Assembly: GCF_001418415.1 (NCBI RefSeq)
Contig: NZ_LIQT01000317.1
Coordinates: 451-37,259 of the forward strand
DNA from: Streptomyces hirsutus
GTDB taxonomy: Bacteria; Actinomycetota; Actinomycetes; Streptomycetales; Streptomycetaceae
DNA length: 36,809 nt
Direction: 5' to 3'
Shown here: in pieces, positions 21,284 to 22,795 of the stretch
Layout of the letters: each line of letters opens with the position of its first letter
Numbering within the stretch: position 1 is the first letter of the stretch
Made by a program: the position numbers and the translations under genes
The notes under the pieces: generated by a model
What the model saw: the letters and a program-made list of their open reading frames with translations, nothing else
Databases searched by the model: none
Told to the model about the DNA's origin: nothing

Positions 21284-21688
21284 ATGCTCGTCCGCGACGC
21301 CATGAGCTCGGTGGTCCTCACCATCGGCCCCGCCCACACCCTTCGCCAGGCCGCCACCCTGATGTCCGCCCGCCGCGTCGGAGCGGCCGTGGTCCTCGAC
21401 CCCGAGGGCACCGGCATCGGCATTCTCACCGAACGGGACGTCCTCAACTCCCTGGGCCTGGGACAGGACCCGGACTCCGAGCGCGCCCACGCCCACACCA
21501 CCACCGACGTCGTCTTCGCCACCCCGTCCTGGACGCTCGAGGACGCCGCCCATGCCATGACCCACGGCGGCTTCCGTCATCTGATCGTTCTGGAGCGGGG
21601 CGAGCCCGTGGGCATCGTCTCGGTGCGCGACATCATCCGCTGCTGGGTTCCCTTACGACGCCAGGCCGCCCAGCACACACCGGCGTGA
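21284..21688 (+). CDS. CBS-domain pair protein
   Basis: The 134-residue protein consists of two CBS motifs forming one Bateman module: residues 1-55 (VRDAMSSVVLTIGPAHTL to GIGILTERDVL) and 70-120 (DVVFATPSWTLEDAAHAM to VGIVSVRDIIR). Such modules bind adenine nucleotides and regulate partners; no partner is evident. The ATG at 21284 is chosen because TAGGAGG lies 12 bases upstream; an in-frame GTG at 21221 is possible. Leu124 is a TTA codon (21653-21655), predicting bldA dependence. Confidence 0.88.
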   Translation: MLVRDAMSSVVLTIGPAHTLRQAATLMSARRVGAAVVLDPEGTGIGILTERDVLNSLGLGQDPDSERAHAHTTTDVVFATPSWTLEDAAHAMTHGGFRHLIVLERGEPVGIVSVRDIIRCWVPLRRQAAQHTPA

Positions 21689-21719: not shown

Positions 21720-21754
21720 ACGGGCCGGGTTCCCCGTGAGGGAGCCCGGCCCGT
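21720..21754. terminator. Bidirectional terminator between CBS and catalase genes
   Basis: ACGGGCCGGGTTCCC (21720-21734) pairs with GGGAGCCCGGCCCGT (21740-21754) over 15 bp with one T-G wobble and a 5-nt loop. It lies between convergent genes. Confidence 0.85.
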
Positions 21755-21782: not shown

Positions 21783-22232
21783 TCAGCCGCGAAGGGCCTG
21801 GACCGCGGCCTCCAGCCGCTTGCCGAAGTCTTCGTCCGCCCGGCGGAAGTCGTTGCCGACGAGGTCGTGGTCGCCCTCTTCGGTGGAGAACTCCAGCGCG
21901 AAACCGCGCGGGGCGCGCACGGCGTCCGGGGCGCCCAGATCGCCGACCACGGTCGAGAAGCGCTGGAAGACCTCGGTCCCCTCGCCCACCTCGGAGAGGA
22001 ACCCGGCCCTGGTGCACTTCGTCACGTCGGCGGTGGCCGTGAAGGTTCCGTAGGCACCGGCGCCGCGGGCGTGCACCACGCGCTCCGGAATGCGCTCACG
22101 GTCGAAGCGGGCCGGCTTCTCCAGGAGCACCTGGTCCTGAACGAGCACCGGGCCGCCGACGCCGGCACTCTCACTGTTCCGATTGCCGGGTATCGGAGCC
22201 CAGGCCTCCGCAGTAAGCGGTCCTTGCGTCAC
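21783..22232 (-). pseudogene. Internally deleted heme catalase (N-terminus fused to C-terminal end)
   Basis: Monofunctional heme catalases are about 480 residues or more; this frame encodes only 149. Residues 1-127 are a good catalase N-terminus: distal His54 in VVHARGAGAYGTF, RFSTVVGDLG (91-100), APRGFALEFSTEEG and DLVGN. The sequence then jumps from the distal Asn region directly to FRRADEDFGKRLEAAVQALRG, which resembles the extreme C-terminus. The heme-ligand Tyr and most of the barrel are absent, so catalase activity is very unlikely. The promoter, the AGGAG ribosome site before GTG 22232 and the terminator are intact. It is divergent from a CatR-like gene. A small surviving function cannot be excluded. 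Confidence 0.8.
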
Positions 22233-22289
22233 ACGCGTCTCCTGAAAATCGTTCCAACCCGCTGCACCCCTTGGCCGAAGCCGTCTCCG

Positions 22290-22325
22290 ATCCTACGATG
22301 GACAATGTCTAAGTCAAGCAAGACT
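22290..22325 (-). promoter_or_regulatory. Catalase promoter with peroxide-repressor-like inverted repeat
   Basis: On the minus strand TTGACT (22317-22312) and TAGGAT (22295-22290) are separated by 16 bases, a good housekeeping promoter. The inverted half-sites AGTC (22312-22315) and GACT (22322-22325) overlap the -35 and are a candidate site for the CatR-like protein encoded next door. Confidence 0.6.
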
Positions 22326-22378: not shown

Positions 22379-22795
22379 ATGAGCGACCTTCTGGAACGAC
22401 TGCGCGGACGCGGCTGGCGGATGACCGCACAGCGTCGTGTGGTGGCCGAGGTCCTCGACGGCGATCACGTCCATCTGACGGCCGACGAGGTGCATGCCCG
22501 AGCCGTCACCAAGCTGCCCGAGATCTCCCGGGCGACCGTCTACAACACGCTGGGCGAGCTGGTGACGATCGGCGAGGTGCTGGAGGTCTCCACGGACAAA
22601 CGGGCCAAGCGTTACGACCCGAACGCCCACCAGCCGCATCACCACCTGGTGTGCGGGCAGTGCGGCGCCATCCGTGACGTGCATCCGGTCGGCAATCCGC
22701 TGGCCGACCTCCCCGACACGGAGCGCTTCGGCTTCACGGTCTCGGGCGTCGAGATGACGTACCGCGGTGTCTGCCCGAACTGCGCGACGGCATAA
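22379..22795 (+). CDS. catR: Fur-family peroxide-responsive repressor, CatR-like
   Basis: The 138-residue protein is a Fur/PerR family metalloregulator. The winged-helix domain includes MTAQRRVVAEVL (15-26), LTADEVHARA and the recognition segment ISRATVYNTLGEL (49-61). The dimerisation domain has His84 and His87-89, and two CxxC pairs (Cys92/Cys95, Cys132/Cys135) that bind structural zinc. It is close to S. coelicolor CatR, which represses the catalase gene catA until peroxide oxidises it. Here the divergent neighbour is a deleted catalase, so its targets may lie elsewhere. The family is sure; the symbol is by resemblance. Confidence 0.88.
   Translation: MSDLLERLRGRGWRMTAQRRVVAEVLDGDHVHLTADEVHARAVTKLPEISRATVYNTLGELVTIGEVLEVSTDKRAKRYDPNAHQPHHHLVCGQCGAIRDVHPVGNPLADLPDTERFGFTVSGVEMTYRGVCPNCATA

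Follow-up and report, generated by a model that had tools for sequence, protein, structure and literature searches.

A truncated catalase gene beside an intact catR in Streptomyces hirsutus, a probable catA pseudogene with the marks of a short-repeat deletion

The short reading frame between catR and a CBS-domain gene in Streptomyces hirsutus is, judged from comparison with intact relatives, almost certainly a pseudogene of catA (also katA1), the H2O2-inducible monofunctional catalase repressed by CatR. It lies in a stretch of 36,809 nucleotides (the window) and joins the first 127 codons of a catalase to the last 22, with 334 codons missing relative to the intact gene of genome G315. An earlier note, made from the letters of this DNA, had described it as a catalase gene with a large in-frame internal deletion, and the comparison bears this out. 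A pseudogene of this form, with its deletion at a short repeat, has so far been seen in one genome. The features of the locus are as follows.

21284..21688, plus strand: gene for a CBS-domain protein, a conserved convergent neighbor
21720..21754, no strand: terminator-like 15-bp inverted repeat separating catA from the CBS gene, which converge here; similar sequence in G315
22232..21783, minus strand: catA/katA1 remnant, putative pseudogene, 149 codons, GTG start; compared with intact relatives
21852..22232, minus strand: 5' part of the remnant, catalase codons 1-127; His54, Ser93 and Asn127 kept
21849..21855, minus strand: deletion junction, where a single 7-bp repeat copy is left (G315 has CAACAAC, the window CAACGAC); 1,002 bp missing
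21783..21851, minus strand: 3' part of the remnant, the catalase's final 22 codons and stop
22239..22243, minus strand: ribosome site AGGAG; intact relatives mostly have GCAGGAGGC, the window TCAGGAGAC
22290..22295, minus strand: catA -10 box TAGGAT, 16-bp spacer; aligned with intact loci
22299..22312, minus strand: palindromic, putative CatR-type operator TTAGACATTGTCCA; position converted from contig C243
22312..22317, minus strand: catA -35 box TTGACT; aligned with intact loci
22379..22795, plus strand: catR, intact, 138 aa, Fur/PerR-family repressor (PF01475)

The part before the junction is a recognizable catalase N-terminus. His54, RFSTVVGDLG and DLVGN, on which the earlier note had based this reading, are all present in the translation, and the Pfam Catalase profile (PF00199) matches residues 10-129 (E 4.6e-46). 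The N-terminal active-site region of monofunctional heme catalases is therefore represented by His54, Ser93 and Asn127, which we take to be the distal residues of the active site. The match ends at profile position 123 of 383 (it begins at 4), and with 334 codons gone the complete barrel and the region of the heme-ligand Tyr are absent, in line with what had been said of the heme ligand and most of the barrel. The C-terminal catalase-related domain (PF06628), which the G315 catA and all three further catalases encoded by the window's own genome possess, is absent as well. After the junction the remnant reads DFRRADEDFGKRLEAAVQALRG, where G315 has NFRQADEDFGKRLEAAVQALRG, and the junction codon itself is altered (Asp for Asn). 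The frame had been thought to join the last 20 residues of a catalase; the join to the C-terminal end holds, and its length is 22.

Among the fetched loci, G315 (L038/L162) is the nearest relative, with 93.0% identity in catR and 93.1% in the CBS gene. In a tree of these two neighboring genes, the node uniting the window and G315 has 100% ultrafast-bootstrap support. Identity to G315 is 95.4% along the 153 bp of the 3' end with the hairpin and 88.5% for the remnant together with the region upstream of it; in all of these stretches G315 was the best match. The G315 catA, of 483 codons, is placed between the same CBS-domain gene and catR as the remnant, an arrangement also found in other relatives. 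An unbroken full-length catalase was present in 152 of the 156 fetched loci with a catalase match, a set that includes some loci in repeated copies, the window itself and a paralog at 70% (L179). The four exceptions are the window itself (L039), a locus at a contig end (L073) and two loci with a single break in the frame (L032 and L127). These last two, from G099 and Streptomyces sp. I6, respectively, have catA at the same locus, and the break is either a sequencing error or early decay.

In G315, the sequence CAACAAC occurs at both ends of the 1,002-bp segment that the window lacks; the two copies encode Asn-Asn (residues 127-128 and 461-462) and lie 1,002 bp apart. When the window was aligned from both sides with nine intact catA loci, the alignments overlapped by exactly 7 bp in six of them; of the remaining three, two overlapped by 2 and 5 bp and one had no overlap. 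From this we infer that slippage or recombination between the two 7-bp repeats removed 1,002 bp, a loss that comprises most of the catalase domain, the heme-ligand region and the C-terminal domain; it is in frame because both copies of CAACAAC encode Asn-Asn. The G315 gene contains 81 distinct direct repeats of at least 7 bp with a separation of 300 bp or more, and 64 of these are in frame (121 pairs, 97 in frame, if counted as 7-mer pairs). Twenty-seven repeats from this set, at 8-14 bp, exceed the length of the one at the junction and were left unused by the deletion, which counts against the explanation. We also considered the in-frame deletion as a sign of selection and rejected this, since with 64 of the 81 repeats in frame such an outcome is the common case.

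With the genome in a draft state of 783 contigs, one rival is an assembly or sequencing error, in which the strain would have a full-length catA from which 1 kb was dropped. Such an error is highly improbable. The junction codon differs from that of G315, and a search of the draft for the missing middle gave three matches, all of them paralogs, with 55, 52 and 43% identity. A repeat of 7 bp is much too short to make an assembly collapse. Moreover, the load of replacements and the near-neutral substitution rate described below would be unexpected for an intact gene.

A codon model of the MG94 type was fitted, on a fixed six-taxon tree, to codons 2-127. The dN/dS was 0.66 on the window branch and 0.05 on the other branches (difference p=1.8e-7), and the window value was not different from 1 (p=0.48), within a wide likelihood 95% range of about 0.27-3.0. 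Three base-frequency settings agreed (0.66-0.88 for the window branch), and four other tips, used as foreground as controls with the window in the background, gave 0.025-0.115, none of them significant. Thus, the window branch behaved as expected for neutral evolution, and purifying selection on the remnant was not detected, although the wide range may be compatible with weak selection on the fragment. The same model applied to 135 codons of catR gave 0.089 on the window branch, a value below 1 (p=6e-4) that did not differ from that of the other branches (p=0.19). By this measure the remnant appears to be drifting freely, unlike catR.

Private changes point the same way. Where 90% or more of 112 orthologs agree, a filter that favors replacement sites, the remnant has 20 replacement and 3 silent changes, and the replacements fall on otherwise near-invariant positions of the catalase. 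Its first 127 residues show 78-80% protein identity to the ten orthologs nearest by DNA (85-87% DNA identity); intact pairs at 84-88% DNA identity average 90-93% in protein, with a minimum of 84%. On the coding strand, ten of the 20 replacements change A to G. A-to-G hypermutation was considered and set aside by a hand estimate: codon positions 1 and 2 hold 64 A and 46 T, the ratio of A to G to T to C is 10:3, and 15 of the 20 replace A/T by G/C, the direction to be expected in a high-GC genome when selection is relaxed.

Several observations count against a pseudogene: no stop or frameshift has accumulated, the promoter and operator are intact, the three active-site residues are kept, and there is one draft genome. 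The open frame would be expected anyway, because in a neutral simulation of substitutions (indels not simulated) the 127 codons remained stop-free in 68-90% of cases. The earlier note had offered a choice between a recent pseudogene and a retained mini-protein. The second would be a mini-protein, or else a small regulatory product, that CatR controls and that does a separate job, such as binding heme or protein after peroxide induction, and it could draw on the same open frame, on the surviving promoter, operator and ribosome site and on His54, Ser93 and Asn127. We regard it as very unlikely, with no positive support in the sequence data: dN/dS is not different from 1, the short form is absent from relatives among the matches listed, replacements have reached near-invariant positions, and survival of the frame is expected by chance. 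The near-neutral rate and the lack of a short form among those matches favor the pseudogene. The word "recent" fits less well. If evolution has been neutral since the deletion, roughly two thirds of the branch would postdate it, a point estimate derived from 0.66 relative to 0.05 and 1 and with a correspondingly wide range; the promoter remains complete.

The gene could also have been inactivated earlier by another lesion in the part that is now missing, with the deletion following later. The data do not give the order of events, and the substitution load spans the N-terminal part. Nothing requires such a lesion, and a dN/dS below 1 would fit selection over part of the branch while being silent on which lesion ended it. 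We consider this sequence of events unlikely.

Searches for the joined form returned it from the source genome. When the 149-aa product was compared with 392 genomes of the genus, its own included (E<=1e-61), seven matched, and the match extended beyond residue 128 in its own genome only. An overlapping search covered 150 genomes, where all matches listed except its own ended at residue 128, and the best 80 relatives in a named collection, all titled Streptomyces, were covered over residues 1-128 only. A pattern for the junction had 0 matches in that collection, from which the genome itself may have been left out; since the pattern is built on codons after the junction that have changed in the window, the same deletion with unaltered codons would escape it, and the protein searches carry this test. 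Close relatives sharing the short gene under purifying selection, which according to the earlier note would make it a distinct family, were thus sought and not found among the matches listed. Likewise, among the matches listed, the open-licence PMC text searched held no account of a truncated Streptomyces catA.

Control elements around the remnant persist. The promoter, ribosome site, peroxide-type inverted repeat and terminator had been reported as remaining, and this was confirmed: the -35 box, -10 box and palindrome between catR and the remnant are the same as in intact loci, the ribosome site is slightly changed, and the terminator-like 15-bp inverted repeat is at 21720-21754. By its place and conservation, TTAGACATTGTCCA is probably the CatR operator. 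The window CatR has the Fur domain (PF01475), two CxxC zinc sites and the regulatory His, and NCBIfam PerR models match it below their cut-offs. Operator binding and a peroxide response are known for relatives from published work, and the window offers an operator-like sequence. Peroxide would presumably still derepress the promoter, giving a non-functional, probably unstable fragment.

The locus appears to be the same gene pair as katA1/catR of S. natalensis, on the evidence of gene order and sequence. In that species katA1 is the H2O2-inducible catalase, CatR is its repressor, and katA1 is the sole known CatR target (PMC4530454, PMC3219662); its deletion gives bald colonies (PMC4530454), and SAV_3052 is named as its closest catalase (PMC3219662). 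The catalase and CatR genes are divergent there as here, the catalase has 487 aa compared with 483 in G315, and C92/C95, C132/C135, H32 and H87 are found at the same positions in the window CatR (PMC3219662). The difference is that the window lacks 334 codons, which by position cover the heme-ligand motif reported at residues 337-345. In S. coelicolor, SCO5206 (CatR) is described, in PMC2464607 and PMC5288332, as a group D Fur homolog regulating the monofunctional catalase CatA; the likeness extends to the type of regulator and target, whereas in the window the adjacent target is apparently dead.

The own genome encodes three other full-length catalases, as does G315. It also carries katG, the gene for a catalase-peroxidase, 71% identical to its G014 counterpart; G315 shows no katG match, and the other 17 of the 18 genomes searched have one. 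We considered the possession of katG as the cause of catA loss, and G009, G027, G159 and G130 each carry both genes. A catalase on contig C48 of the own genome (L067) adjoins a second CatR gene, 77% identical and divergent, with the same operator sequence between them; contig C48 ends about 0.1 kb past this second catR. In five other loci (L190, L193, L195, L199 and L200), katG lies beside a CatR paralog about 82-86% identical to the window CatR (partial in L193), with the same palindromic operator, and nine further katG loci have a distant Fur (31-36%) nearby. A search of the own genome for the operator as TTRGACNNNGTCYA gave 5 hits in 4 places (this locus, the C48 catR-catalase promoter, C338 inside katG, and C246), compared with 11 for the reversed control. 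A genome-wide CatR regulon based on this search was rejected for lack of enrichment; the interpretable places are this locus and the C48 promoter only.

Loss of catA beside catR occurs elsewhere in the genus. We sampled 36 other genomes, 34 with a readable locus: catA adjoins catR in 23, the CBS gene and catR are present without catA between them in 11, and 2 are unreadable (G001, 79% complete, with no hit to either neighbor in L179; and G028, whose CBS gene is at a contig end and whose catR hit is a katG-linked paralog). For S. coelicolor, we assume that catA is located away from SCO5206. A tree of CBS and catR was built for 36 taxa, namely the 11 without catA, 24 with it (21 of the 23 plus G315, G159 and G130; G029 and G010, which have catA and no CBS hit, were left out) and the window. 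Scoring the window as having catA, Fitch parsimony on the best tree gave 7 changes of state. Several inner nodes of this tree are weak (20-31%); well-supported groups that mix both states are G009/G026 (99%), G033 with G003, G016 and G020 (95%), and G008 with its sisters (100%).

Like the window, the catA-less loci (e.g., those of G011, G033 and G014) keep the CBS gene and catR and have lost catA at the same place. Unlike the window, which retains both ends of the gene and its promoter, they have no catA match left, and the catA -10 box is changed in 10 of the 11 (L054-L064; G014 is the exception). The -35 box is changed in 8 of 11; G014, G024 and G008 retain it. Nine of the 11 preserve the palindrome, four of them exactly, three with a single mismatch and two with two mismatches, and G002 and G021 lack it; this retention fits continued use of the palindrome by catR. 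In G014, a katG of 736 aa (NCBIfam PRK15061, TIGR00198; L056:1279-3489, contig C142) stands in the place of catA behind a complete CatR-type promoter and operator. When the katG-to-catR stretch was compared with 392 genomes (E<=1e-55), 229 matched, and among the matches listed only G014 itself covers the whole; other matches take in either the katG end or the promoter end, and G078 reaches the leader and not the promoter.

The remnant itself is ordinary decay, and it is more useful to ask why CatR persists where the only target known for it is gone. CatR may be kept through control of itself and of other genes, perhaps including the C48 catalase with the same operator sequence. Because catA has been lost or replaced repeatedly, once by katG, and yet catR stays and the operator mostly stays, it is conceivable, if rather less than probable, that CatR has a conserved job in Streptomyces beyond catA and serves a new set of genes here, for example the C48 catalase. 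For annotation, the remnant passes the curated Pfam catalase cut-off and could be labeled a catalase, which it cannot be. By sequence, this strain lives without catA, as do 11 of the 34 genomes readable at this locus, although loss of the gene in S. natalensis gives bald colonies (PMC4530454). Strains that have CatR and lack its only reported target make it testable what else CatR controls.
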